From Ulva prolifera (taxonomy: Eukaryota > Chlorophyta > Ulvophyceae > Ulvales > Ulvaceae): a stretch of DNA of 64,000 bases. The notes under the pieces are model-generated. The model saw nothing but the letters and a program-made list of their open reading frames with translations, was not told the origin of the DNA and did not search any database. This document shows, in pieces, positions 2,000 through 61,500 of the stretch. A program made the position numbers and the translations under genes. How positions within the stretch are numbered: the stretch's first letter is position 1; every line of letters begins with the position of its first letter. Location of the stretch: contig CM041201.1 in the NCBI GenBank assembly GCA_023078555.1, positions 4,843,713 to 4,907,712 of the forward strand. Direction: 5' to 3'.

Positions 2000-2450
2000 C
2001 AGTAGGTTTGCGCAGTTGGGGTGTGGGGGGGTCACGAGCGAGCTCAGGCAGAGCTCAGGCAACCGTGGTGGGTCTGGGGAGGGGATTAACGTGTGGGGGC
2101 TGGAGGGCCTGGCATTGCTTGTTTCCGGCGGTTGCCAGGAGGTGGTGTGTGCATGCTAGTTGATGTCTGGCCGCCCGGGCCACGTGCGTGGTGGGGAGTT
2201 CGGGAATGGTGTCGCAGGGTGGGGTCGGTGCGTGCGGGTGTGGGCGGGACTTTGCATGTGCGCGGGCGTGGGTGGCGTGGGTGCGTTGGTGCTGTGTGCG
2301 CTGGTGGCGTTGCAGGATAGGGTGTCTGAGTGGGTTTCTGGGTGGAGTGACCGCGATTGCTGGCGTGGGTGGTGGCCCTGTTGCTGTTCGTGCCATGCGT
2401 GCGGATAGCGCATCGCTTCCTGCCTCTCCGACTTTGTTCCTGCAACACAG
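2000..2450 (+). repeat. GT-rich repeat, possible diverged retroposon copy
   Basis: This stretch is strongly G/T-biased on the + strand and ends in ctttgttcctgcaacacagg near 2434-2453. That end resembles the shared 3' end (ctttgtccttgtaacaca) of the repeat family at 24.7-26.9 kb. The body aligns only loosely by eye and no target-site duplication is evident. It may be an old relative or only compositionally similar. Confidence 0.4.
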
Positions 2451-5400: not shown

Positions 5401-6765
5401 CAGAACAGCAGCAGGCAGATAGAAGGCCTTTGGTGATGCACAAGGCGCCAACTACAGACCCGCATGTGAGCATGCGATATTGGAAAACAGCAAGCAGCTC
5501 AACACAAGCAGATCAGGATGATTAACTCTGTACTACCTCCGAGATAAATTGTCCGTTGAAGGTGATCAGAGCAGCAAATCTTGCACTCGTCAGCGCTGCC
5601 GTGGCCCGCGGTGGACTCAGGTTCACAAAATGTGTGTTCCTGCGCTTGTACACATTCTGCAACCGCTAACTTCAGTAATCCAATGACTCATCTGTCAATT
5701 GAAGAGCTCGGAAAACCACTCCAGCCAATTGATGCCGCCCCAAAGGCAATATGTGCGCCAGTGCTGCGAAACAAGCGCAGCCGCAGGTCTCAACTGTATG
5801 TACATAACGACCAGAGACACTAACATCTGTATCGTAGGACCACCCAGTACGTGGCTGAGTGTGAATCAACTCTCAGATTAGTCAAACCCAGGATGGTTCC
5901 AACCATCTGACCTTGGATGACGCCGGGGTTGAGTTTGTCGTGGCAGGCCGCTGCGTGCAGCAGATGCAATTTCGCGATACGGTTCCATAGAATTGAAGTG
6001 GTTTCGCACATGATGACCTGCATGCCATAGCTTGTAGTCAACAGAGCTTCCGGCGGTACTCGATTCAGATGTAAGCACTGCGCCGGGATCTTCGAAAGGG
6101 GGAGAGTGGAATAGCTGCAGTGCGCAATGTAAAACTTCAACTTGGTAGCGGTCGCGGGTGCTCGTGAGCAGGCGGTGGTTACACACACGAAACATTTTCG
6201 CTGTCCAGCAGAAGGGTCATGCAGTACCTCCCTGCAGCTGGCAGAAACCCTACACCTATTGTGCACGCTGCACCAGTGTACTCGACATCGCACACACCAC
6301 AGATGGCACAGGCCGGCAGATCTTTCACGCAATGCGTGTGTGGTGATGTGTGGCGTATGCGCTGCGGTGCGTCCGCAGGGCCTCCGGAACCCAGCCCTGC
6401 CCGCACACGGGGCAGCTGGTCCAGAGGGAAACAACAGCACAAGCCTGCCGGCCCTCTCCGCGCATCGCCAACAGCGGCCAGGCATAATATCCACTCACCT
6501 GAGCCTGAACCGTGCATCCCACCGCTGATGCATCACATAAAAACTTGTCGCAAAACTTGAAACTCGAGCAGCCACAACCAGCCGTGCGGCCATCAGCCCA
6601 CATTCATGCCAGCAGGCGCACTTGCATTCACAGGCATGCACTCCCCGGCACACCCCCCTGTCGTTTCGATTCGATTCAGTCCTGCCTCCGGATCATCCCC
6701 CCCCCCCCCCCCCCCCCCCCCCCCGTCCTTTGACCCCTTACTCCCTACACTACTTGCATGCCTCG
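2451..6765. other. Long stretch without a recognised gene
   Basis: No conserved domain can be read in any frame. The longest open frame (4286-5047, minus, about 250 codons) has an irregular, Ser/Cys-rich composition and no flanking splice signals. Minus frames at 5182-5451 and 5820-6494 are also open but unrecognised and could be exons of an unknown gene. A short (caacactg)3 tandem lies near 3900-3925. A pure C run of 28 bases lies at 6697-6724. Confidence 0.45.
6697..6724. repeat. Poly-C tract, 28 bases
   Basis: This is an uninterrupted run of 28 cytosines about 40 bases beyond the stop codon of the minus-strand BTB/T1 gene, so it probably falls in that transcript's 3' UTR as poly-G. Its exact length is likely unreliable in sequencing. 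Confidence 0.95.
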
Positions 6766-14613: not shown

Positions 14614-17600
14614 ATGCCTCATGGAGACGTAATTTCACCATCCATAGGCTCTGTAATAAGCAGTGCCGCCGGTGGATGCCGGATGGAGGCGTTAGCTCCA
14701 GGGCGTGCACAGCGGTCCAGCACACAATCAGCGGGACCAACCCAAGTGCAGAACGATGAACGGAATGTTGTGACCACAGAGCCGCTGCGAGCAGCTGAGA
14801 AGGAGTCCCAATCAGCTGGCATGTTCCGGGACGGAGCAATTAACACTGCACCTTTGATAGAGCAGCAGCTGCAGCCGCGCGGAGCCAGCAGTTCTCCACA
14901 GCTTTTAGTCCAGGTCCTGGTGGAGAGCTCTTTCGGTCAGAAGGCGACGTTGCCTGTGTCGGGCTGTGACACCATCCGGGAGCTGAAGATGCGACTTGCA
15001 AACAAGTCCTGGTTCACATCAAAGCACTGCCTCTTCTTTGGCGGCAAGGAGCTACTTGACCATGACATGGTCGCAGACATTGTAAATCAGGTCAATACCG
15101 CGGCCAATCCCAATTACCTCCACGTGTTCGTTCGTGCGAAGGATGTTCGTTACGGCAACATCTCCACCTCAGCAGCCTCTACCTCTTTCGGCAACCTGAG
15201 GGCTCTTGATGCTGCGGAAGCTGCAGACGCCCATTCTCCTCCAAAAGACTCCTTCACTCCCCGAGCGCCGCCTCAATCCAGTGACGACCTGGCCCTCGCC
15301 ACAGTTTCCTCCTCGGATGCAGCAGACCTCGCTCCGGTGCTCCACATTGTGATCCGCAAGAGCTCACATGTCACCTGGAGCTCTGCATCACGCACGGGCG
15401 AGTTCGAACTCACCGTGCGGGCCACAGACACAGCAGACCAACTCAAGCAGCAGCTGCTGCCCAGTTCGGGCGATGCATGCTCCCCAGCTCTTCACAGCGA
15501 TATCAACCTTTTTCACAACGGTGTGCGGCTTCAGGTGCGCTCAGTCCTCCTGTGCCGTCCTGCTCAAATCTCGTCTGATCATCCCACAGTGCCCCCCGCC
15601 CACACGACTACCGCCGCGACCACCGCACGTGGATTCTGTGATCACTGACTCCCGTGGACCGAGCCGCAAAGACAAACGAGGGACCACCCGCAGACTGCAA
15701 CTGGTCTCCCGCCTTGAGCAGGGCCTGCAAGCATGCCTGCAGCCCATGAGGCCACAGCGCACATCCGCCACTCGACCACAGGTCAACAGCTCGTGGCATG
15801 CAGGCGGACAGACCCCTTCTGACGTACGGCCTGTCTGACGGGGACGTGCTGGACATTGTGCCATGGGAGCCGGCGGTGCGCTCCGTGCGCTCAGCCATCC
15901 CCGCCGCCGTGTCCGCCGGCACCACCATCGAGCTGCACCAGCCGGTGCTGTCCTCCCCGACGCACGCCCTGTACATCAGCTGGCAGAAGGCCGCCGACGG
16001 CCTCCGCTCGGGTGCGCCCCGCGCCTTCCATGCGCTGCACCACCGCACACCTGCCTCCCTCGCATCATGCGAGCGAGACCTCGTATGCGGCTGCGCGAAC
16101 AGCCTCCTGCGTCATCCTGTGGAGCGGCTGGAACAGCACTTACCATCGCTCTGTAGCTCTAAGCCTGGGCCTCTGGTGTTTCAAGACATGCACTGGCTTT
16201 CTCGGTACATACGGGCGCTATCAGCACACCTGTGGACATAGTGCATGCATGCGCTGCGTCTGCACACTGCTCGAGAGCATGCGTGTGTGCAGGGATCGTG
16301 CCGGAGCTCGCGCCGTCAGGCACCGGGGGTTCGTATTTCCTGCGCGGCCCCGACCGGGCCGTCGTCGCGGTCTTCAAGCCGATGGATGAGGAGCCCAACA
16401 TGCGCAACAACCCGCGCAGCCTCGCGCGCTCGCCCTCGCCGCCGTCGTCCGCGTCGCCCCCAGGCCTCGCGCTCGCTCCGGCCTGCGTGCGACGCGGCGT
16501 GCTGCCCGGCGAGGGCGCGCTGCGGGAGATCGCGGCATACCTGCTAGACCACGGCCACCGCGCCGGCGTCCCCGCTACGGCCCCCGTCTTCCTGACGTAC
16601 CCCGATGGCTCCTCGAAGCACGGCAGCCTGCAGCAGTTTGTCACCGCAGACTGCGACTGCGAGGAGATGGGGTACAGCGCGTTCTCCGTGGAGGAGGTAC
16701 CCCCCCCCCCCCCCCCCCCCCTTTTGGTCGAGGGCCTCTGCTCATTACTGACCGCGTGGCTGCAGCGTGGGCACTGGCGCCGAGCTGTGTGGAGGTGCTG
16801 ACGTGGGGGGTCTGGATGCAGGTGCACAAGATCGCGGTGCTAGACCTGCGGCTGTGCAACGCGGACCGCAACGGCAGCAACATCCTCGCGCGCCGCGTTG
16901 ACGGCGAGTGGCTGCTGACGCCGATCGACCACGGCTTCTGCATGCCCGACTCCTGGACAGACATGGCGTTCGTCTGGAGCTCCTGGCGCCAGGTGCGGCG
17001 ACCCGGCTGTGGGGAAGCACTGCCCGGCGTGCCCTTCATGTAGATCACCCGCATGGCGTGTACTGATGGCACCGCCTGTTTTGACGCTGCATGCATGGTT
17101 ACTGCTGGGCATCCGGCATCGGTCTCTGTCCCGCTGCTGTAGTGCATGGCCTGGCAGCGGTGTCGGTTGGCGCTGGGTGTGCTCGAGTTGGGGCCCCGCT
17201 GTGCAGGCCAAGGTGCCATTTGACCGGGACACGGTGGAGTACATCATGGGGCTGGACGCGGGCGGCGACCTTGCGATGCTGGCGGAGTGCGGCGTGCGCG
17301 TTCGGCCCGCCTGTGCGCGTGTTTTCAAGGCCGCAACCATGGTCCTTAAGAAGGTCGCCGCTCGCGGACTCTCTCCTCGGGACGCTGCCGACATCCTGGA
17401 GCGCAACACCCTGCGAAAAAGTACGATGGAAAAAATGCACAGGTGCGACTTTCAGAGCCGTCTTTTTGCGGGGCCGGCCGGGCGTGTAGATGACCTGGGG
17501 CCTGTGCACTGACAGAGGTAGAGCATGATGGTGGGGTCGTTTGTGCAGGGTGGCATGCGAAAAGGCTCTCCGCGAGGAGGAAGGCGAGGAGCTTGAAACA

Positions 17601-18167: not shown

Positions 18168-21100
18168 TCATGCAGTCTTCACACCTCGCATTTCGTCAAC
18201 AGCAGACATGGCCAGTGCTGCTAACAAAACTAGCGGTGCCCTCTGTGTCTCCAGCTTGGCTGCACCCACCGCCTCCAAATGCTCAGCTGCAAGGCAGATG
18301 GCAGCACGAATCTCGATCTTGGCCAGTTCAGGCGTTTTCCAGGCTGATGGGTCATCATTCAGGAGCATTTTCACCAGGTGCGCCACCTTGTCCTCATCAG
18401 ACAAGTTGCTGTCCAGAGCCTGCACCAAACTCCTGCAGTGTTGGCACACAGCCGACACCATGGAGACATTCGTGACCCGAACATGTCAACGGCAACATGC
18501 CATTCAAAGGCAACCAACAAGCACGTTCAACTGCTTGCAGCAGTACTGTCATCCTGCACACGCCGACAGCGCTACCCACGTATGCTATTCGAGGGCGAGT
18601 GCTGGACACTGTGATGTGTCTCCAGGATTCAGCAACAGCGAAGTCAAATCAAGCTGCAGCACTGTCGCGGATGTCCAGCCTGCACACCTTCAGGATGCGC
18701 TGCACATCGGTCGTCATGACCTGGTTCACGCCATCCTCTAGCGCCTGCATGCCCTTTGGCCCGAGCTTGCGCCGCATCTCTTCCGCACGCGTAGCCACCC
18801 TCTTCACCATCATGGCCCGAGCCTCCTCCTGCGCAGCCACGCGAGCTTGTGCCTCCGTCTCGGCCTCCACAGCAGCCATCACCTGCGTCACCTCTGCCGC
18901 CGATTCGCTCTGCGAACTCACATCTGCGCGCCGCGACCTCTCGTACTTGCCGAGCCGCTCATGCGCAGCCGTGCGCGGCTTCTCCGGGCCCTTGCCCTGT
19001 ATGCGGCGCGCGAGATCTGCGGCCGTGACGAACGCGGAAAGCACCGGCCCCGCGGCGCCCTTTGCACGGATCGCCGAGTTGCGGGAGCTGCCGATCGCGG
19101 TGGCAACACCGTACACCCCCGCAATGAGCGCAACGTCGGTGATATCGACGGCGATGCCGCCGGCGAGCGTGGCGGCGCCGAGGCCGGCGGCGGCCATGCC
19201 GGCGTATGCGCCGACGCGGCCGATCAGGCCGACCTCGTCCTCTGGCCTCACATCCGCGACGTCCTCTGCCCTGACTGAGCCCGGGTCCTCGATCAACTGC
19301 ATGCTCACACGGCCACGCCTGGTGCGGGGTGCTACACCATCAATACGAACAGGTGCAGTGGCGTTGCAATCAAACACATGTCCGGCACGCAGCGATGACT
19401 GGCCAAAGTCCAAGGGCACAAATTTTGGTGTCACAAACAAAGTCAGCCTGTTGATCCGGTTTACTATGACATCCGGCAGAATACTCTGTGTGAAGGGAGA
19501 ACAGGTGAGCGTGAAGCCTCTGAAATACACAGCTGTGTCCATCCATTGCCATGGAGGCTCGTTCACCAGCCAAGTGGCATGCTGCTGTTGACTGACACAT
19601 GAACGAGTGCGTGGACCAGCGGCACTGAGGCGCATCGGAGGAGGGGAGAGGGGGGGCGCACGACGCCATTAGAGTCAGTGAGCAGGCCGTCGGGGCCCTG
19701 CGAGAGGGGCGTCGTTACAGTCACAGTGCCCGTCTCGGAGTCGTACTCATGGCCGCCGCCGCGCACAACGACCGTGCTGCCGTCCTCGCTCACGTCCAGG
19801 CGCCCCTTCTGCAGCTGGAATGTGCCGTCGTCTTCGACCTCAGCGGCGGCAGCGCCGGCGGGTGGCGCGCCGGCCTCCGCAAGCACCGCGAGCTGCTCCG
19901 GCGTGAGCACCATGTCTTCCAGGCCTGCAGAGCGGGCTGCATGGCTGTGACACTGGCTGGCAACTGACGCAGGGCCCTGTGCATGGCTGGGACAGGCACC
20001 TGTGCCGTGCTGAGAGCGCAACTTGAGCCGCTGGGCAGTGCCGGGCAGACGCGGAGCTGCACAGATGGTGTGACAGCGCAGTGGCTGGCTGTAGGGACAC
20101 CAGCTGTGGCATGCACACATTGACAGCTGCTTGCACAGAGCATGAAAGACTCTAACACGGCATGAGTGCACGCTTGGGCGAAACTGCTAGATACGCTCAG
20201 GCAGCACCGGCATATGTGGTTGCACATCTCGGGCTGATGCAGACTACTCCGCTGTACTGAGACACGCCTGAGCAAAATTTGCCTGGAGTGCTGCGATCTC
20301 AGGACACACTGACGGCCTGCAGCTGCAACACAGACAAGGAGGCGCCGTCTCTGGGCTGATCGCACCTGCTGCAAGTGCATCACCGTTCTGTGGCCGGTCA
20401 CTGCTGGCCAGCGCGGCGCCATCGGCACCTGCTGTGTCTCGCACAGCCCACGGAGCGTCTGCGGGCGGGCCCTCAGGCACCTGCGCTGATCGATCGGCAG
20501 TCATTGGCCAGTCCTGCACGCTCTGTGGCAGCGCTGTGGGCAGCGCAGTCTGTCCTGCTGCCTTCTGATCCGTCGTGTCCAATGAAACATTCGCAGTTGC
20601 GCCTCGCTCCTTCACATCCCCAGGAGCGGGGGCTGCCCCTGGCTGTGCAAAGGGTGGCACGGACGCTGCAGAATCTGCTGCGCCCTCTGCCACCGCAGTG
20701 GACCCCTCAGAATCCGGTGGCGCTTCCTTGGCTCCCGTGGCATCTGCCGGCGCACTCTTGGCTAGCGGCCACTCTGATGCAATGCCTTCAAGAACTGCAA
20801 GGCGGCCCTCTGCGTGGACCGCGGCAGCGGTCGCGGCAGCCGCATCAGCCTCAGCAGCCTCAGCCTGCTCCAGGGCAGCGGCCTTCGCCCGCGCAGCCTC
20901 CTCCGCCTGCGCCTCCAGCGCCTGCACCACCTCTTCATCTGACGTGTACCCCAGGTCCTCGCTCATGTCCAGACCTGCCGCGGCAACCACAGCAGCAGAG
21001 GGCCACATCACGCTGCCCCCTGCACGCTTCGCCTGTGCTGCCTCGGCGACGCCATCCTTGCCTGCAGCGCCCTGTGCGGTGAGGGACACAGCACCATGGG

Positions 21101-23800
21101 CCCCGGTGGATGCAGCTGTGACTGGAGACCCGCCCTTTGCATCTGCCTCCTGGGTGGCCTGCTCTACCTGGTCAGATGCCCAAGGCTTCTTCTGTTGCAC
21201 CTTTTCTTTCGCGACTCCTGGACTGTCGGAGGTAGCATCCTCATTCTTGGCCTCCATCGCAGTAGTGGTCATGGCCTCCTCAGTCTTCACCTTGTCCGCT
21301 GCAGCCTTCTTGATCGCAGCTTTCTCTTCCTCGGCCGCTGCCGCCTCCTCAGCCTTTGCCTTCGCTGCCTTGGCCTTTTTGGCCTTCGCCTTCTCAGCTT
21401 CGGCCTTCTCCGCCTCAGCCTTCTCAGCAGCAGCTTTATCGGCCTCAGCCTTAGCCTTCTCAGCCTTTGCCTTCTCAGCAACTACCTTCTCAGCTTCGGC
21501 CTTCTCCGCCTCAGCCTTCTTAGCAGCAGCTTTCTCAGCCTCGACCTTCTCAGCAGCAGCCTTCTGCGCCTTTACATTCTCAGCCTTCTCGGCAGCAGCC
21601 TTCTCAGCAGCTACCCTGTCAGCTTCGGCCTTCTCCGTCTCAGCTTTCTCAGCAGCAGCTTTGTCAGCCTCAGCCTGCTCAGACTTTGCCTTCTCGGCAG
21701 CTACCTTCTCAGCTTCGGCCTTCTCCGCCTCAGCCTTCTCAGCAGCAGCTTTATCAGCCTCAGCCTTCTCAGCTTTCACCTTCTCAGCGGCAGCCTTCTC
21801 AGCTTCGGCCTTTTCGGCTTCGGCCTTCTCAAGCGCAGCCTTCTCCGCCTCAGCTTTTATCTTCTCAGCTTTCTCGGCTGCGGCCTTCTCAGCCTTCACC
21901 TTCTCAGCAGCAATTTTATCAGCTTCAGCCTTCTGAGCAGCAACCTTCTCGGCCTCGGCCTTCTCTGCAGCAGCTTTCTCGGCCTCAGCTTTCACCTTTT
22001 CCGCTTCAGCCTTCTCGGCAAGAACCTTCTCAGCCCTTGCCCTCTCCGCCTCGGCCTTCTCAGCCCTTGCCTTGTCAGCCTCAGCTTTCTCAGCAGCCGC
22101 AATGGCGGCATGTAGCTTCTTGGCCTTCGCAGCCATGACCTCTTCTGATGCAGCTTTCGCAGCAGCTGCAGCCTCTGCAGCAAGCTGAGCTGTCTTCGAC
22201 TCTTCAGATAAAACCGCATCAGCTTCAGCCTGCTTGGCAGCCTCATCTGTGGCATCTGCCATGACAGGCGCAGTTTGCTCTGCGGACGCCTTGGGTGCCC
22301 CAGCCCGGACCTCATCAGAACTGTCAGAATCGGACCCGTAGACTGCCTCTTCCTTCACAGTGATCATGCGCTGCGAGTCAGCTACCCCTGACACCACATC
22401 TGCAACAGCTGCAACAGCTGCCACCGTTGCTGCTGACGCCGGTTGCGGTGTAGACAGGATGCTTGCCCTGGACTCGCCGTCCCAGGTGCAACCCACCTCG
22501 AGTATGTCGCCCTCCTTCAGACCCAACAATGTTGGGTCCACGATTGTGTTCTCTCCGCTCTGCCACTGGCACCAGTCATTGCTGCCCTCGACCGCTTGGA
22601 CGACTTTCCAATCGACAGGAGTGTCCACAGGCAGCTCAAGCTCCAGCTGCCAAATGTTGTCGGGGGTCCATGTGAAAGCAGGAGCCTGAGGGAACCGCCA
22701 GCTGCCCAGCACAGGGGAGCTGCCGACGAGCTTCAGGTGCTGACCAAGGCAGAGCTGCAAAGCAGTCTTCTCAATTGGTAGCAATTATGTGTTACCAGCT
22801 CAGCAAGCTGCAATGGGACAAACCAGGAAATTCGTGACGCCGAAGAACATGTTGCAACCTTATGTCAAACGCTTGGTGCAGTGATGCAAGAGCGCACCTC
22901 TTTCTGAATGGCAATGCGTGCTGTGTAAGTTGGCACCGCTGCAGCATCGATCTCTTCAGCCACCCCACCGTTACCAGTCGTCCCAAACGAATCGTTCTGT
23001 ACGACCAAAACGAATGTTAGCGGCGAGGCGTTTGGGGACGCGCGTGATACGGGGAACTCTAACATGTGGGGAAGCAGAACAGCACCTGCAGCGGCGTAGC
23101 GCTGGAATAAGACTCCGGTTGCCCCCAACAGGATGTTATACTGATTCCTGGAGATGATATTTCGTTCAGGTTTGCTGTCCGATCGTCCCCACCCTCCCAC
23201 TCAGCGAAGGCTAGATCTTCGGGGACTCGCACAAACTTGTACTGGATGACAGCGTCAGCGACGGAGACGGAGCCTCTCCATACATGTCCCGGATGCCACT
23301 CCAGCTTGACACCATTGAGGTGATTCCATTCACCAAGTTCGGGAGCGCTACCCACAACCACGACTTCTTCGCCCACGGCAACCTGCGAAGATGGCAAGGA
23401 TGAGTGGGCATATTCTCAAACCACGGCGCAAAGAGCACGTGAGCTGCAGCGAAACTCTGAGCTGTATTCACAAACAGAGTGTTCTCATAGGGACACACTT
23501 ATGGAACTGCGTGCATCGCAGCAGTTCTGCATGGATATCTCGCAGAGCGTCCGAACGTGTGGCGCGAACGAGCTCTCAGCAATAGGAGCGTACCTCACGC
23601 GTCACCTCGAAGAAGACACGCTTGACCGATGCTTCTTCTCCTGAACTAGCGCCTCCAGGTGCAGGCGAAGGAACGGGCCTTGTCTGCACCGGGGACGCCT
23701 GGGCGCGCCCAAGCGGTGAAGTGCGGCCATGTACGACTTGCGATCCTGGAACTGCATCCACACGCAGATCTAAAGTCATGATTTTGATGGCCATGTGCAT
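18168..23800 (-). CDS. Tandem CBM20 starch-binding, long coiled-coil protein
   Basis: Exons on the minus strand: 23800-23594 (start tentative), 23382-23086, 22996-22898, 22754-20366, 19924-19662, 19296-18688 and 18419-18168. All phases close, for about 1371 residues. Two CBM20 domains open the protein. The first runs from VKRVFFEVTRE to VVVVGSAPELGEWN, WHPGHVWRG and WEGGDDR; the second runs from TARIAIQKE to LKLVGSSPVLGSW, WQLELELP and W-K/W-Q-W aromatics. About 270 residues of imperfect AEKAEAEK-type heptads follow (DNA about 21330-22130), a very charged coiled coil, then an acidic Ala-rich region. Near the C-terminus is a hydrophobic Gly/Ala stretch (AGMAAAGLGAATLAGG onward, about 40 residues) that could be membrane-associated, then helical ends. 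CBM20 binds starch. With no catalytic domain, a scaffold at the starch granule or pyrenoid is my inference, by analogy with Chlamydomonas SAGA1. Subcellular targeting is unproven: no clear transit peptide is seen and the 5' exon may lie further upstream. Confidence 0.85.
21330..22130 (-). repeat. Degenerate Ala-Glu-Lys coding repeat
   Basis: Within the large exon of the CBM20 protein, a degenerate unit encoding AEKAEAEK/AEKAAAEK variants repeats for about 800 bases. Synonymous variation between units is high, unlike the 27-bp array at 1.7 kb, so it is old or under coding constraint. Its composition also keeps two plus-strand frames open; those are shadows. Confidence 0.85.
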
Positions 23801-24698
23801 GCAGGTATTGCGTTGAGCGTATTCTTATCGACGGCAAGGCCAGGCGTGTGACTGAGAGAAAAACATGCTATCGAACAGCCACTGATGCCAATCAACATTA
23901 GCATACCTCGCCGAGGAAGCCTTAAAGGAAGGGAGAATATGTGTGCGTGCAAGCTGCACTGCTTCATGGTGACCGACGCCAGAGCTTCAGGCACGAGTGA
24001 GCCTGCTGATGTTACGCCTGCTGTACTTCAGCGCCGAGAAAGAAGCAGTCTTGTTTGTTTCGCGACTGTTGCTATCACCGCTGTCTCGCCTCTTGAGCCA
24101 ACGTCGCTGCACGCAGCTTGTCTGGCCAGCACATGGATTTGAATCGTCCCGGGTTACCGCGGCTTCCCACAACGCGGCTTCCTGTGCGTGCAGGTAGGCC
24201 GACGTCGGACCCGCATCTTCACAACCTACCGCGACACAAACATTCATCGCGATTCCAGTTTGCAGCTCATATGCAATGGGATGACCGCATCCCGCCAGGA
24301 GTGATAATACAGGCAACAGCGATGAGATTCGAGCGTCCATGTGCATCATTTCGATACCGACGGGTATGCTGCGCGCAGCCTGCGAACACCTGCACTTCGC
24401 CGCAGCGTGTGCCAGTCGAAAAGCGCATTAGTAGTAACAAGTCCATATCGATCGGTACGACATGCCGCAGATGTGTAGCACGTAATAACTGGGATTCACT
24501 GGGAATGCTTGCGATAGCAGAATCATTGTGACTGCTCACTGTTGGCGCAATTGCACACATGTGTGAATTAGTTCCGAGAAAACGTTCTCAGTGCTAAGCT
24601 CGTGCTTGTCGCTGTCGATGTCATGTCCGGAAGCCAGTAGGCCAACGCTCCCCCGGCTCCCGTGCAGTGATCACCAATGCCTTGTTGTGCGCATTGCA
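23801..24698. other. Upstream of CBM20 gene; no other gene recognised
   Basis: Any missing 5' exon and the promoter of the minus-strand CBM20 gene should lie here. A Ser/Arg/Lys-rich minus frame around 23990-24130 could be a transit-peptide exon, but no convincing ATG plus donor pair joins it. Confidence 0.35.
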
Positions 24699-25272
24699 TG
24701 TGTAAGCATGTGTTACAAGGACAAAGCAAGCGAGGCAGGTAGCACCGCAAGCAAGAACCAGGGGAACCGCACACCACGCAACAAGCCACACGCAGCACAC
24801 ACCAAAACACCCACGCAACGGCAGCACCCGCGCCGGCCACAGCCACACAGCCACACAGCCACACACACGCCCACGCCCACCTGAACCGCGCCCACCAGCC
24901 AGGCGCACGAGACCCGGAAGCACAAGCAGCCAAGGCCGCCGAGCAAACAAACATTGAGACCGCAACAACAACCCCCAGCCCGGGGAGGCCCCCGCCTCCC
25001 CCAGCACAACCCCCCCAAGCCCAGCCCCCGCACACCACCCCGCCCGCCCGCAAACCCACACCCGTAACCCCTAAAGTCCAGCCCAGCCCGCCCAAACTAC
25101 CCGGCCGCGTCCCAACGGCGGGCCACACGCAGGCGCACGGGGAAGACACCAGCGAAACGCGGCACGCCTGAGCCGCCACCACAACAAAGCGGACGAGGCT
25201 GCGAGCGCACACGCAGCGGCGACTGCCTACCACGCAGCCCAGGCGGGCACGCAGCCGTGTGTAAGCATGTGT
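24699..25272 (-). mobile_element. Retroposon-like GC-rich element, copy 1, with 15-bp target-site duplication
   Basis: The 15-base sequence tgtgtaagcatgtgt stands at 24699-24713 and again at 25258-25272, enclosing a 544-base element (24714-25257). Read on the minus strand, the element matches copy 2 at 25991-26873 over most of its length and ends in ctttgtccttgta. Its strand bias (G/T on the minus strand) keeps a frame of about 240 codons open. That peptide is Trp/Cys/Gly-rich, contains no reverse transcriptase or other motif, and loses frame between copies, so I treat the element as noncoding. The duplication plus a fixed 3' end fits target-primed insertion of a non-autonomous non-LTR element. 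There is no poly(A) tail. Confidence 0.75.
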
Positions 25273-25977
25273 AAGGACAGCACCCCCCGTTCTCCCCATC
25301 CGATCTAGCTACATATATTGCAACGTGATAGCGTCTCACTCCAATTCCACATTGGAAGGCAGAGGTTGACCAGGTCCGCAATGATTGGCGATCTGTCAGT
25401 GTCCCCGGGACTCGCAGCCGTACAGCAAAGCATTTTGTTCGTCGGAGTAATCAATGTTCACAAACAACGTCACCTGCAGACTGCATCGTCTTTCCCATGC
25501 GTCCCTGCCGCTCACGCCAGTTGTGACCGGCTTCGAAACGAGCATGATCATGAGACACCGTACATTGCCCGCTATCCGCATGTTAGACGTGGCCTGCGCA
25601 ACATCGTGTGCCCGTCCAAGATTACAGTAGAATTGCCGACGAGCATGTACACAGGCGTAGTACCACAGGCGTAGTACGTAGGTATACACGAGTAGTACAC
25701 TGGGACAGTGCACTGAAGCATGGCCGGCTCAGCTGTTGTACTGGTGCAACTGTGCTACAGGTTGAAGGCACTCGATGTGCCAGGATGCAATGATTGTGAT
25801 GCCATGGATATTGCAAAGCTCATCTCCAATGTTCTGCTCCAGACTCGATTCCCCCCCTGTCCTCGTGGACACCCCCTGCCGACTGCTATATACGGCGATC
25901 TGGGATCCTTGACCACACATTGCACATGGGATGGCCACATTAAATTACTGCATACTGGTGCATGGGTGTGAGTGACG
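25273..25977. other. Spacer between two retroposon copies
   Basis: I see no gene or repeat here beyond short open frames. The two flanking copies point in opposite directions, away from this spacer at their 3' ends. Confidence 0.5.
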
Positions 25978-26197
25978 CACAGTCGCAAAACCTCACAGGC
26001 CACCCGGTGTGAGCGGCGCTGCGCGCCCGACCGGGCTGCCTGATAGGCGGTCGTCGTTGCGTGTGCTCGCGGGCTCGTCCGCTTCGTCGTAGTGGCAGCC
26101 CTGGCATGCCGCGCTTTGCCGCTGTCCTCCCCGTGCATGTGCGTGTGGCCCGCCATTGGGGCGCAGCCGGGTGGCGTGGGGAGGCTGGGCTGGACTT

Positions 26198-26217
26198 GGG
26201 GGGGGGGGGGGGGGGGG
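26198..26217. repeat. Poly-G tract, 20 bases
   Basis: This is an uninterrupted run of guanines within retroposon copy 2. The matching position of copy 1 is not a homopolymer, so the run expanded after the copies separated. Confidence 0.95.
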
Positions 26218-26450
26218 TTGTGGGTATGGGGTTGCAGGTGGGCGGGGTGGTGTGCAGGGGCTGGGCGGGGTGGGTTGTGCTGGCGGAGGCGGGGGCCTCC
26301 CCGGGGCGGGGTTGTGGTTGTAGGGGTTTCGCTGCTTCTTTGCTTGGCTGCCTTGGCTGCGTGTGCTTTCTTTCGGGGCTCTTGCGCCTGGCTGGTGGGC
26401 GGCTGGTGCGGGTGGGGGTGTGCGGGTGGGTGTGCCTGTGGGTGTTGGGT

Positions 26451-26692
26451 GGGATGCTTGTGTTACAAAGGAAAAAGCCGGAGGGGCCGGTAGCACCGCC
26501 AGGAGCAAAAGGGAGAGCACGAACAATGCGACGCGCACGCAACAGGAGAGCAACAGCCAACGCCAAGGCACAACAAGCACCCACACACCCCCACACTCCA
26601 ACACACTACCACACGAACCCACCCCCACACGCACCTCCACACGCACCCACCCCCAAACGCCCAGATTCCTCGGCATTGACGGGATGCTTGTG
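26451..26692 (-). mobile_element. Nested 5'-truncated retroposon copy 3 with 12-bp duplication
   Basis: The 12-mer gggatgcttgtg occurs at 26451-26462 and 26681-26692 and brackets a 218-base insert. On the minus strand the insert is related to the 3' part of the family, ending in gctaccggcccctccgg and tttttcctttgtaa. Its short length, intact 3' end, reverse orientation and direct duplication are the marks of a 5'-truncated retroposon inserted into an older copy. Confidence 0.75.
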
Positions 26693-26886
26693 TGTGTTTG
26701 TGGGTGTGTGTGGTCGTATGTGGTCGTGTGTGTGGCTGTGTGGCTGTGGCTGGCGCGACTGCTAGCGGTGCGTGGGTGTGTTGGTGTGTGATATGTGTGG
26801 CTTAATGCGTAGTGTGCGGCTCCCCTGGTTGCTGCCCGCGGTGCTACCTGCCTTCCTTGCTTTGTCCTTGTAACACAGTGGCAAAA

Positions 26887-28601
26887 TTCGCAGATACCTT
26901 TGTGCCTCAGTGACTGTGTTGGCTGCCTGTGATGGCTTTTTGTGGACAAGTTCAGGTTTATGAAATCTTAGACTCTAGGCTTGACGTCTGTTCATGGCTA
27001 ATTTGCTCTCGGATTGCTTGCCGTGGTTGCTCTAGCCCTGTTGAGGTTGCCTTTGCTCCTGCGCACAGCTTACTGCAACTACCACACCGGCCAATCGTGG
27101 AAACGACACTGGACAACAATTGGCACTGGCGTGCACGTGCTTGATGGTGCGAGTTCACATGTGCCCACAGCTGCTACTGGTGTCAATGGCATGTGCCCAT
27201 GCACCAGCCAGCATGCAAGAGGCCACCGTAAACAGCAATTAACAGCAACACTTAAACCTGACCTTCCAGGCATGCACAGCTCCAAACACCCTCTGTCCAG
27301 CCAGCCCAGGTATGCCACCAGCCCGGATGGCACACTGCATCATGCCAAGGTTCATGCAGTGAAGCCGGCCAGCCACAACACCAGGGCATGAACTAGTCGA
27401 TCCAGCTGGGCCATGTGCTGCTGTGTAGCCTGAGGGTCAGCCACAGGGGCAGCACCTCGAGCTCGCAGCTCGCAGCTGTGTCGGAGTCATGATGCATGCT
27501 GTGTGCATGTGCTGGGCACATGGACAAGGCGACCGGGGACATCGCGACTGCAGACATGATTCTGAGGTGGTGCCCTGTGGCGCTGCCGTGAGAAGCCTTC
27601 CGGGCGGCTGCATGTGCTCTACGCATGCCTCCCTGCTCTGCACTTGGGAGCACTCGCGATCGTCTGGGCCTATGCATGCATGTAGTCGGTCGTCATGTGC
27701 GAACGGTGGCTGCGGGGCCGCAGCCACGCCGTACTGGTGCTGCAGTCGCGAAGGGTGCAGTTCGTGAGCCCTGATGTTGGAACAGAGGATTCAGGCATCA
27801 CACCACTCACGCGGGCATTGGCTTCATCACGATGGCAGAGGCGGCCAAAATAGACGAGAGCTGTGCGCCGGTGTTGTGGCGGTGGCCGGTGTCTCGATCC
27901 GATATCGCTGCTGCTGTGAAGTTCGTGGGCAACGCGATGCAGTGGCAGCGCCCTCACCCCTCCCCCCCCCCCCCCCCCCCCCCCACTCTCCGGCACTGGG
28001 TGCTACGTCTGCAACAACCTTAACAAACTCGGGCTTTGTGTACTCGGGCCTCCAGATGGTGTTGACAATAATGGTGCTGCATCTCTGCTAAAGTCTACGG
28101 CAAGAGTGTTAGTGACTTCTCCACCCTCCCGCTATCGGTGCTGCTGTACTTCGGGGTGGCATGGTGCTGCATTTCTGTTCTGTGCCGGGGCTGCTGTAAT
28201 ACAGCCTGCAAGTTGTGCAAAGCTGCATGCTGCGCTACGGCAGCCCAAGAAAGCTGCAGATGCTTGATCCAGAGAATGAAGCCGTTTCAAGGTGAATGTG
28301 TTCTGCTTCTCTGATTGAATCGGAAGGTGCTAGCGCTGCCGCAAACCTGGCGCTGAGTGAAGAAGGCACGTCACCTGCTGATACGGCGCAATGGCTAGAA
28401 GTCCATCGCGGCCCCGGGTACGATACCATGCTCGCGCAGCATAGAACGGCAACCTTATAATCACACACACACACGATCAATCACATCTGATCGCATTGTT
28501 TTCTGGCTGCTTCCGATTTTCCTGCAGTCGGCGAGACAGTAGTTGTTTGACCGCGACCGCCTGTCGCAACCAAGGTGCCTGATTTACGCGTGACTTGCAA
28601 G
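26887..28601. other. Intergenic; no gene recognised
   Basis: This stretch contains a 23-base C run at 27962-27984 and a short (ac)n near 28464. A plus frame starting MAEAAKIDESCAPVLWRW at 27832 is open up to the C run but is not recognisable. The GST promoter should lie in its last part. Confidence 0.45.
27962..27984. repeat. Poly-C tract, 23 bases
   Basis: An uninterrupted run of 23 cytosines between the retroposon cluster and the GST gene. Confidence 0.95.
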
Positions 28602-30298
28602 ATGACGACGCTGTATTACTTCCCAATTCGTGGCTTGGCGGAGATGATCCGCGTTACGCTCTCATGCGCAGGCGTGCCGTGCGCTCCTCCTTGGCCATTC
28701 CAACTGTGATAGCCTCCAGCTAGTGATTACGGAAGCCGGTGACAGTTTCCTGCAGATATAAGGAGACAGCTATTGGAGGTAGCTCGAAGGATTCTTCGGA
28801 AGATTCAGTTACATACGACGACGTCAAGACAGATATCGCGAGCTTCCCGTTTGCCCAAGTGCCCAGGTCCGATAGCAGTACTGGCACTAGCATTAGACAA
28901 ATGCGGTTCCCGCTCCCACTCGTCCCATCACATTGCCCATGATGTTGATGCGTGAATGAATTGTTGAATCCTCTGTGACTCGACCGTGGAGACATTGTGC
29001 TTGCATGCTCCTGAAGCGCCGCGTCCGGCATGTGCAGGCTGGTCGACGGGGACATCAACATCGTCCAGGCCAACGCAATATTGCGTCACTTGGCTCGCAA
29101 GTGTGAGCTCTATGGATCGTCAGAGGCTGATCATTGCCGTGTAGATGAAGTTCTAGACGGCGTGCAAGCTCTGAGAGGCAAGTATTACGACGTGGTGTAT
29201 GCCCAGTCCTTGGTGCGTGCTCCAAAGGCAATGTAGGGCCTCCATATCAGCGTCAGCTGTGTAATGCTGGTGCTGTGGCCTCGTGTTGTGGCCGTCTGAC
29301 ATCTGCCTAGTTGCTGAGACGCGTGCTGGTGGACATGGCATGACGCTCTTGGTCCGTGTGTTGTCTGCATCTGCTTGACCATCACACCTCAGACGGCGAG
29401 TATGCCGCAGCACACGATTAATGCTCACTCCCACACCTCAACAGACGCATCTGCAGCGCCACGAACTGAGAAGTGGTGGTGTGGCTGTGGACGTAATCGT
29501 GTGTACAGGAGGAGACTGCCAAAACAGAGCACTGGGAGAAACACGGCAATCCAGAGACCATCTCCGGTCGCAATGGTGGAGCCCACTGGGGCTACCTGGC
29601 GGCTCTGCTCAAGGCCAGTGACACAGCATTCGTTGCTGGAGCTTCCATTTCCGTGGCAGACTGTGCCCTGTTTGACATCACAGACAACTATCTGCGTACA
29701 TTTGGTGATCAGATGAGGTCTCAGGCAAGTGCACTCCTTTCTGCTCCATATGAGACTCTCTGACCTGTAGTGGCGGGCTTGGCGTCCACTACAGCTGACA
29801 TGGCTGCGATCGTAGTGGGCCCTTTGCAAATGCATGCGATACATGGACCGCAGTGTGTGTGTATGCCCGCTGTGCAGCAAGTGCTTTTTTCATACTGTTG
29901 GGTCTGATCTTGATGCTGAAGTCGAAGGTGGCATACAACTGACACAGCCATCAGCTCAGCCTTGGTCTCAGCATATGGTGAGCGCACAATCACCAACAGC
30001 CTTGCACCTCAGGCGGAATGATTTCATCATTTTGTTGCAGCTCTGGTTCCGACACAAGCTCCGATCATGCTCTGCGCTCATGCTCCTGTATCGCGTGAGG
30101 CACTATGCCAGCGCTTCACTCGCCACTCGGGCACAGCTCAGGCTTATGCACGGTGTGAGGTTGTGTCAACTTAAAGTTGCTGTGCAGTACCCTGCCATTG
30201 TGGAACACCATGAGATGATGAAGACGCAGCCTGGTGTAAAAGCTCATCTGGAGAGCGGCAAGCTTCATGAGCACTACAACAACAACCGGCTGGGCTGA
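28602..30298 (+). CDS. Glutathione S-transferase, sigma-like
   Basis: Exons 28602-28678, 28756-28866, 29038-29212, 29509-29724 and 30188-30298 join to 229 residues, the usual GST length. The N-terminal thioredoxin-like fold begins MTTLYYFPIRGLAEMIR, with the candidate catalytic Tyr in the position used by sigma/alpha classes. It continues through FAQVPRLVDGD, with the conserved cis-Pro, to NIVQANAILRHLARK, whose N-terminal residues occupy the glutathione-binding turn. The helical C-terminal domain contains FVAGASISVADCALFDITD, the GST hydrophobic-staple/N-capping region. The protein ends PGVKAHLESGKLHEHYNNN. The reaction is conjugation or isomerisation with glutathione, presumably in the cytosol since no signal is seen; the substrate cannot be told. 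The last intron uses a GC donor, cag|gcaagt. The GT donor seven bases earlier (gatgag|gtctc) would break phase. Confidence 0.9.
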
Positions 30299-54690: not shown

Positions 54691-58566
<3,876 letters not shown>

Positions 58567-61500
58567 TGGGGATAGGCATATAGCACTGATTGCCTGAGCT
58601 TGTGTGTCTGAGCATTGTGTTGTGATCTGCTAGCTCCGGGGAACTGCTCCCCATTCTGGAGTAGCTTAATATTCTTTCAAGGTTCTGCCAGACTGTCTGG
58701 CGGCAATGTGCGTGAAAATGTAGCCATCACACAGCGGCTGAGTACATCTGTCATGCGCAGAGATGTAACTCAAAACACATATACGACCAGGCCACCAAGC
58801 TGACTGCATAACTCTTCAGTATCAGCTGCAGCATCGTCTGGTGGAAGCCTGCTTTGGTGTCTACACACCGTGTTGTTGGACACGCGCTTCGCCATGATGT
58901 GTTGGCACGGTACATGGCGCATATGTAATACACAGTATTCCCAGGACTTGCTACTCAAGCGCAAGTGATGCTGCCTTCAATGTACTTCAAGCCCATGTGA
59001 TGCCTGCAGTATTGTGACCTGGGTACTGGTGGCCCCCATGGGCCTCTCTGGCCACTTCCATCCCAGCTGCACTGCATGTGATCCAAAGTGCCAAAGCTAA
59101 AGAGCCCCTGTCTCAAAGACGCGGGTCTATCTCCTGTGCAATCAATACGCACATCGGGGGGCGCCGCATGCCACATGGCGCGGTGTGCCAGACGGGCCAT
59201 CACCACTTGGGTCAGAATTATAAAGCGTGACAAGGACAAGGCCAGACATGCAGGTAGCACTGCAGGACAACAGCACAACCAAGCCATACCACAGCCGTCA
59301 CCTGAGAACAACTCCAATGCACCACAGCCATTCAACACCACCCCCCAATGCTGACAAAACCCCGCCCCGCATGCGTATACTCCACAATCTTGCTAAGTTT
59401 GCAATTCCACCTGTCACTGCACTGCTAAAGCAGGCTCTACGCCAGGGAGACCGCTCGGCCAGTGGACGAAGTGATAGGCAACTGCCAGGTGCCTACTTCA
59501 GACTTAGGCTGCACAGCGCACACCCCTAGGCAAGCTGAGATACCTTACGCCGTTTGATAAGGGCTGCAGGATAAAGCTCGTGCCTACAACTTTCTTTGCA
59601 AGCGTGCAGGCACTGACCGATACAGGCACTTCCTGCCACTGTGCCCACCGTAGCATACACAAGGCAGCCAATCCACCTAGACATCTGACACTAATACCTG
59701 AACTAATGCAATAGGATTAAGCTGAGTTTTTATTCAACCCTGTTCTTGGTGATGAGTGCCGTGTCGTACATGCTGTGGAAGCTTATGGCTGGTTGCAAGA
59801 GAGGACGGCGCGTAACGGTGACATACCGCGACATCGGCCTCTGACTTTCGCCGGCGCACTGTGCGCTGCACAGACTTGCAGCATCCCCGCACAAGCAATG
59901 ATCCGAGGGAGGCTGCAGCATATATATCGCTGTGATCATTCTGTAATACACAATGTCCGCAGACCTCGTCTTGGATAGGATTCCCTGCTTGACGGGCAGC
60001 GCCGTCCTGATGTGCCCTACGCCGGCGTGCTGTTGCCTTACAAAGATCTGAAGGTAGATGTAACATATTAACGTGTGGTGGAGCTCTGACTAGAAGTTCA
60101 TCTCTGAAGGTGCGATTGCGACTTGCTGTCTGCAGACCTGGCCAGCTGTCAAGAAAGTGATGTTCATTGTCGCCCCAGTCCTACCGTGCCCAAAGCCAAA
60201 GGGCAACAAACGATGAGGATTGACACATTCTCTGATTCTGATGGCAGCTGGCCGGCTGATCGCATTTTGTTATTGCCCGCCGCGGCCGCCGTCGCTCTGG
60301 CGTCTGCAGCTCTGTGTCCGCGCGAAAGTCACCATGTACAAGTAACACAGACCCAGGAATGCATCAGGATTGTGCAGTGATGAAAGACATTACCCAGCTC
60401 GCTTTGAGCCTTCGGGCATTGAAGAGAATCTTGTTTCTCACGTTTTAGACTGAGCACTCCTGACCTGGGGCATCACTGTTGCGGCTGCATCAGCACTTAT
60501 CACATGTTGGAGGGGATGACGAGTCTTTCCCCGGATGATCGACTCTGATTACATCCTAAGTTGTTTCGGGATCAAGCTACCTGAAATTTTGAACCGACCC
60601 TCCAACGTGAATAGCTTCTGCGTCTGGATTGCTGTGATGACTTGAAGTAACGGACTAGAGTTTCTGACATACAGTGTTGAGAAAATCTTCGTACCTGAGC
60701 GATCCAAACGACTCGCCTAGGTCTGTCTTTGTTGTGTCATGTCGTTCAGGCTGCCTTTCAGTTGGATCATGGGTGATCAGTACCCATGGGCCCGTTCCCG
60801 GTAGCAACAGTAATGAGATTGTGGAAAGTATGATCAAGCCGGAAGCAATTGTTGAACTGGCCTCTGCTATCTTGGCTGTGTTCTTGTATGCTTCCAGGAC
60901 GAAGAGGCCAGACACTCCAATGGAACCAGCCATTGATAGTCAGTTATACTGCTGGTTGTTGCAAAAATGATTTTGCCGTGGATGTGCAGGGTCAGCACTG
61001 GGTGAGCACGTCCCAGGCACAGTGTGGACTTGCCGTAGCTTGTGGTGTCTTATGACACTTGCTGGCTGAGTAGTTTGCCCAGGTGTGCAACTCACTACTA
61101 TTGTTTCGTGGGCACTCCTGGCTTCTATTGAGCACATGGCGTGAATGTGTATTGCTGATACTGATGATCTGGACGTGTTGCACCATTGGATGCTTTATCA
61201 GGCAACAGGCGCTGCCCACGATGGCTGTGAGACTGTGTTCAATCATCCATAAATCGTATGGGCTATGTGTGAAGCCTGCCATGCCCTAATCATGCCAGGC
61301 TATACGTGGTCCGTACATTCCTTGCCAGCTCAAGGCACACTCAGTGTAGCAATGAATCTGCAGCTGATGATGTTTGGACGCATCATGTATATATTGTGCA
61401 TATGAGCCAATCCAGTAATGTCTGAGCTTATTGGGTACTGCTGCAGGATGTGATCGGCCCGCTCCGTTCACGCAAACATTCTGCGGATGTAAGGTACTTT

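Follow-up and report, generated by a model that had tools for sequence, protein, structure and literature searches.

A dispersed, adenine-poor, non-coding sequence family with a common 3' end and flanking duplications in a 64-kb window

The window analyzed here, a stretch of 64 kb, contains Pfam matches to COG4, MCM, ubiquitin and CBM20 domains, from which it was taken as eukaryotic nuclear DNA; a SET match falls just below the cut-off. We judge from the GC content and the character of the genes that the host is likely a green alga, which the comparison with algal LINEs below presupposes. The CBM20 starch-binding domain belongs to an 846-aa open frame on the minus strand (20244-22784) with a long repetitive stretch of 15-nt periodicity, and the snoRNA U31b was matched by Rfam at 60153-60238 with 41.5 bits for a gathering score of 37. 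The window also carries a dispersed non-coding family, for which our analysis supports three copies and one or two decayed relatives (Table 1).

Table 1. Coordinates of the family members and of their flanking duplications in the window
Feature	Position	Strand	Description
Candidate copy 5	2161..2444	+	A-poor G/T-rich stretch; ends CTTTGTTCCTGCA, then ACACA; start undefined
Copy 1 duplication, 3' side	24699..24713	.	TGTGTAAGCATGTGT, 15 bp
Copy 1	24714..25257	-	544 nt; A-depleted, G-rich; 3' end CTTTGTCCTTGTA at 24714
Copy 1 duplication, 5' side	25258..25272	.	TGTGTAAGCATGTGT, 15 bp; matches 3' side 15/15
Copy 2 duplication, 5' side	25978..25990	.	CACAGTCGCAAAA, 13 bp
Copy 2, whole span including nested copy 3	25991..26873	+	Read from sequence
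Copy 2, 5' part	25991..26463	+	78% identical to copy 1 over 426 aligned columns
Copy 3 duplication, 3' side	26451..26463	.	GGGATGCTTGTGT, 13 bp
Copy 3	26464..26680	-	217 nt; nested inside copy 2 in opposite orientation; 3' end CTTTTTCCTTTGTA
Copy 3 duplication, 5' side	26681..26693	.	GGGATGCTTGTGT, 13 bp; matches 3' side 13/13
Copy 2, 3' part	26694..26873	+	Ends CTTTGTCCTTGTA(A); 83% identical to copy 1 over 170 columns
Copy 2 duplication, 3' side	26874..26886	.	CACAGTGGCAAAA, 13 bp; 12/13 identical to 5' side
Copy 4, diverged 3' tail	59229..59288	-	GTGCTACCTGC...CCTTGTCCTTGTC

The three elements reported in the initial annotation are real, each with its flanking duplications and the common 3' end. 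Once copy 3 and one of its duplications are removed, copy 2 becomes a continuous element of 653 nt that aligns to copy 1; the final 13 bases of its 5' part double as one side of the duplication of copy 3. Of 541 aligned bases, copies 1 and 2 share 450, and they give a colinear match of 426 columns (E 2e-93, low-complexity filter off). Their 5' ends lie within about 26 nt of each other. Overall, the copies vary in length at their 5' side (544, 653 and 217 nt for copies 1, 2 and 3) and share the same 3' end. At its 5' end copy 2 bears inverted arms, CTCACA and TGTGAG (25992-26013), which are absent from copy 1, and Rfam, run on 24650-26950, matched no ribozyme family there. Among the transitions that separate copies 1 and 2, 29 of 52 lie at CpG-type sites in one or both copies, as compared with 93 of 319 unchanged C or G sites, which is suggestive of CpG decay as a source of their differences.

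The relationship of copy 3 to the two others is of a different kind. It can be aligned to the 3' portion of copy 2, beginning near position 413, at 71% over 126 columns, with an E of 1e-7 obtained in a five-sequence database, on GT-rich sequence and in one search direction only. A profile of the full-length copies 1 and 2 gave E 0.0056 for copy 4, 0.22 for a segment of candidate copy 5 (2226-2445) and 0.31 for copy 3. With a profile of the four tails, copies 1 to 4 all scored at E 3e-9 or better, as expected from the way it was built, and no other sequence of the window scored below E 0.7. Comparison of the two profiles thus indicates that copies 3 and 4 are related to the family mainly through their tails. 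Copy 3, the third of the elements first proposed, is a relative chiefly through its 3' tail and GT-rich stretch and is not a full homologue.

Read on their sense strand, copies 1, 2 and 3 end in GTCCTTGTA, GTCCTTGTAA and TTCCTTTGTA, respectively, in each case followed by (A)CACA. All three terminate with TTGTA(A), and we agree with the earlier observation that they have no poly(A) tail. The motif CTTGTAA occurs as one unit in copies 1 and 2, its final A being ambiguous in copy 1, and the terminal unit is CTTTGTAA in copy 3 and CTTGTC in copy 4. Just before the terminal unit stands CTTTGTC, which by eye matches CTTGTAA at 5 bases with one gap (3/7 ungapped) and could possibly be a decayed second unit. 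The likeness of the tails was compared with 1,000 shuffles: the score of copies 2 and 3 was reached by none of them, that of copies 1 and 3 by one, and that of the copy 4 tail against copies 1 and 2 by none. Copy 4 is followed by ACGC and not by ACACA, and no duplication was detected around it in 3.3 kb at the thresholds used. A hairpin of 4 pairs can be drawn in the tail, with one pair broken in copy 3 and no covariation. When the four tails were folded singly, one did better than shuffles (z -3.1) and three did not.

In the three clear copies, the duplications directly adjoin the common 3' end and each starts with (A)CACA, as had been noticed for the sequence downstream of each 3' end. Their lengths had been given as 15, 13 (one mismatch) and 12 bases; the first two values are correct, but copy 3 has a perfect duplication of 13 bp. 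Among 20,000 junction pairs placed at random in the window, an exact match of at least 12 in a 60-base zone was found 4 times, and 13 bp with at most one mismatch 24 times. CACA occupies 0.8% of positions (1,048 of 128,000, both strands of the window), and its presence at one of two offsets in all three copies has a nominal probability of about 4e-6, a post hoc value for a motif picked after it had been seen. Since the (A)CACA lies inside the duplications, it was already present in the target; in copies 1 and 3 the junction A is ambiguous. A scan for any repeats that follow TGTA was rejected as non-discriminating, with 0 to 5 hits of at least 11 bp in each of 30 shuffles; in the real window it returned nine rows, three of them directly on copies 1 and 3 and one being a shifted repeat at copy 1. 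The scan further returned a 13-bp pair at 57817/58754, dropped as an element because the stretch resembles, by eye, host gene sequence adjoining the MCM matches. The sense-direction flank upstream of the copy 1 duplication (25273-25290) reads TGTCCTTACACATGC and resembles the element's own junction TGTCCTTGTAACACATGC (24714-24726); it is perhaps an older insertion end or reflects complementarity of the target to the tail.

The bodies of the copies do not look coding. The mismatches that separate copies 1 and 2 favor no codon position (30, 29 and 32 at the three), in agreement with the earlier statement that no frame is conserved between copies. Pfam was run on ten stop-free frames, of which nine span copies 1-3 with their borders and the tenth lies downstream, at 29318; the single match obtained (E 0.086) was below the cut-off. 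No Pfam reverse transcriptase was found in the 30 ORFs scanned in the window. A motif search for reverse transcriptase boxes in its 625 ORFs of at least 60 aa gave two pattern matches, neither of which looked like a reverse transcriptase by eye, so the absence of this enzyme, also claimed initially, is borne out for both sets of ORFs. ARAGORN detected no tRNA gene in the window, and Rfam, applied to 24650-26950 with E up to 10, gave five microRNA-family matches, all below their gathering scores. No head derived from a small RNA (tRNA, 5S or 7SL) was thus found by ARAGORN in the window or by Rfam in that region.

The base composition of the copies is peculiar. Their sense strand contains 15 A in 544 nt for copy 1, 32 in 653 for copy 2 and 11 in 217 for copy 3, and only 5 A are common to copies 1 and 2 in 541 aligned positions. 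As a comparison, in 819 windows of 150 bases taken outside 24.5-27 kb, the rarer of A and T averaged 18% and never fell below 6%, while a denser scan added a single window at 5.3%, located at 21276 in a coding stretch rich in repeats. We counted 16 G-quadruplex motifs in the whole window (7 plus, 9 minus), and 7 of the 16 belong to the sense strands of copies 1 and 2. In copy 1 there are three for a shuffle mean of 0.5 (a number reached by 0 of 200 shuffles), copy 2 has four for a mean of 1.0 (2 of 200), one of them drawing on a run of 20 G, and copy 3 has none. Runs of at least 20 C or G occur at least four times in the 64 kb (6697-6724, 16700-16721, 26198-26217 and 27962-27984). The nearly adenine-free sense strand, together with the quadruplex motifs of copies 1 and 2, looks like the sole odd feature of otherwise ordinary LINE-type insertions.

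We consider it likely that the copies derive from RNA and were inserted by target-primed reverse transcription, with the machinery of a LINE that recognizes a fixed 3' tail and is most likely of the RTEX clade or a similar algal one. A LINE-type endonuclease would nick the strand that pairs with (A)CACA and expose a 3' end ...TGTG(T); this nick site is deduced from the start points of the duplications. The reverse transcriptase would then start at the fixed 3' end of a template RNA recognized through its last ~35-60 bases, GC[G/A]GTGCTACC...GCTTTGTCCTTGTA(A), and cleavage of the second strand 13-15 bases away would produce the duplications. The copies themselves could correspond to the 3' UTR of the partner LINE or to a SINE-like parasite bearing its tail. 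Support for recognition of the tail comes from copies that carry it even though their bodies can hardly be aligned, if at all. Such stringent recognition of the 3' end has been described for otherwise diverged LINEs and SINEs that have a conserved 3' end of about 45-50 bases in common (PMC3747384). Against the LINE-based reading count the reverse transcriptase sought in vain in the ORFs covered, the ACGC flank and missing duplication of copy 4, the short tail hairpin, and the poor scores of copies 3 and 4 with the full-length profile. The common tail makes recognition testable in the present family, which adds an inferable 3' recognition module and a target preference to the poorly known retroposons of a host that is probably a GC-rich alga.

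The partner could tentatively be an RTEX-clade LINE with CTTGTAA in its 3' repeat, to which we would give slightly less than an even chance. The initial annotation could not assign the family to a named group; the terminal CTTGTAA may narrow the choice to green-algal RTEX elements, but this lead, the sole link to a clade, consists of only 7 bases in a single unit with no tandem array. Indeed, (CTTGTAA)n is listed among the 3' repeats of six green-algal RTEX families (PMC3747384, Table 3), and RTEX LINEs have been reported at Chlorella centromeres (PMC11005252). The 3' repeats listed for these LINEs also include (CA)n (PMC3747384); here the 3' end is CCTTGTAA, placed before (A)CACA, with no poly(A). 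On the other hand, our family shows one clear unit and no array, and no reverse transcriptase was seen in the window. Stringent 3'-end recognition is also a property of UnaL2. This L2-clade LINE ends in TGTAA repeats (PMC3747384). However, UnaL2 is an eel element, our family has a single unit, and the likeness concerns the 3' motif alone. A parallel can also be drawn with mammalian L1, which carries a G-quadruplex-capable tract on the sense strand of its non-coding 3' UTR. However, L1 is A-rich and has a poly(A) tail, whereas this family is A-depleted and has none.

The TGTAA motif has another known role, as the main polyadenylation signal of Chlamydomonas, where the distance from it to the downstream cleavage site averages 14 nt; in the same study, however, only 12 of the 26 recorded tails had the motif within 22 nt (PMC3439250). 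If the host uses this signal, the element would terminate in a polyadenylation signal of its own, and reverse transcription would have to begin before any poly(A) tail. Exact searches with tail and body patterns gave no match in viral or bacterial/archaeal contig collections, nor did blastn with copy 1 in a plasmid collection; given the nature of these collections, such absences say little. No description of the family appeared in the titles and abstract openings of the algal retroelement, LINE and Penelope literature, among the matches listed, which covered few subscription papers, and none of six retroelement terms occurs in 'Comparative genomics of Chlamydomonas' (PMC8226300).

Target-primed insertion by a LINE can take two forms, which are near even with n=3 and are versions of the preferred explanation, not alternatives to it. 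The copies have about an even chance of being 5'-truncated 3' UTRs of an autonomous RTEX-like LINE and not the non-autonomous family of the initial annotation. Varied 5' ends with one 3' end make the pattern of 5' truncation, as does copy 3, a 217-nt element that can be aligned to the 3' portion of copy 2 and starts far inside it, and no small-RNA head was found in the sequences covered by ARAGORN (the window) and Rfam (24650-26950). However, the starts of copies 1 and 2 are only about 26 nt apart, a spacing that two random truncations of a several-kb LINE would seldom give and that favors a defined 5' end. One could then assume a complete SINE-like element, about 550-650 nt long, that has a LINE-derived tail and a head of unclear origin, a version that falls somewhat short of an even chance: the coincidence concerns two copies only, copy 3 starts elsewhere, and no tRNA (window) or Rfam (24650-26950) match was obtained. 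Its length would also exceed that of most SINEs. Comparable elements are nevertheless listed in Chlamydomonas, where SINEX-1, -2 and -4_CR combine a head of unknown origin with a LINE-type tail and have RandI partners; compared by description alone, their tails are (ATT)n or (CTTT)n and not CTTGTAA (PMC3747384).

A more specific and rather unlikely variant would be a headless but complete SINE-like family of about 600 nt, with an almost A-free, G-quadruplex-rich transcript, used by a LINE that recognizes a TGTAA-ended tail of ~35-60 nt and inserts at (A)CACA, in which the loss of A was selected and did not arise by drift. If true, adenine would have been selected against in the template RNA, for example to avoid internal polyadenylation signals. 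We regard it as improbable that the copies are non-autonomous Penelope-like elements of the Chlamys type that prefer CA-rich sites, of which Chlamydomonas MRC1 is an example. Chlamys elements occur in algae and are biased toward microsatellites, which would fit, as would the position of copy 3 in a GT-rich stretch, but Penelope-like elements show a pseudo-LTR or tandem arrangement, and a self-search of copy 1 gave no internal direct repeat; moreover, Penelope machinery need not be invoked for a clean common 3' end that carries a LINE-like terminal unit. Finally, parts of the copies are GT-rich or short-period, and one would wonder whether low-complexity DNA with fortuitous repeats could look alike by chance. 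This is refuted by the 426-column colinear match of copies 1 and 2 and by three duplications whose chance rates are 4 or 24 in 20,000 per junction, and its probability is practically nil.

Besides the diverged copy 4, the stretch listed as candidate copy 5 may be a fifth member of the family, although a weak candidate. Its A content is 7.7% over 2161-2445. Its tail scores against copies 1 to 4 were reached by 91, 109, 2 and 498 of 1,000 shuffles, respectively, and are not significant alone. As a control, 60 shuffled windows gave 42 hits of E 1 or better, none of them with ACACA at the junction. Its duplication is weak (79 of 1,000 shuffles). Upstream of it, at 1721-1994, lies a 27-bp minisatellite of about 10 units. 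The unit AGGGCCCTAGCTGTGCAG matches the 3' flank of candidate copy 5, AGGGCCCTACATGTGAAG, at 15 of 18 bases, as if the array had been seeded by a target duplication.
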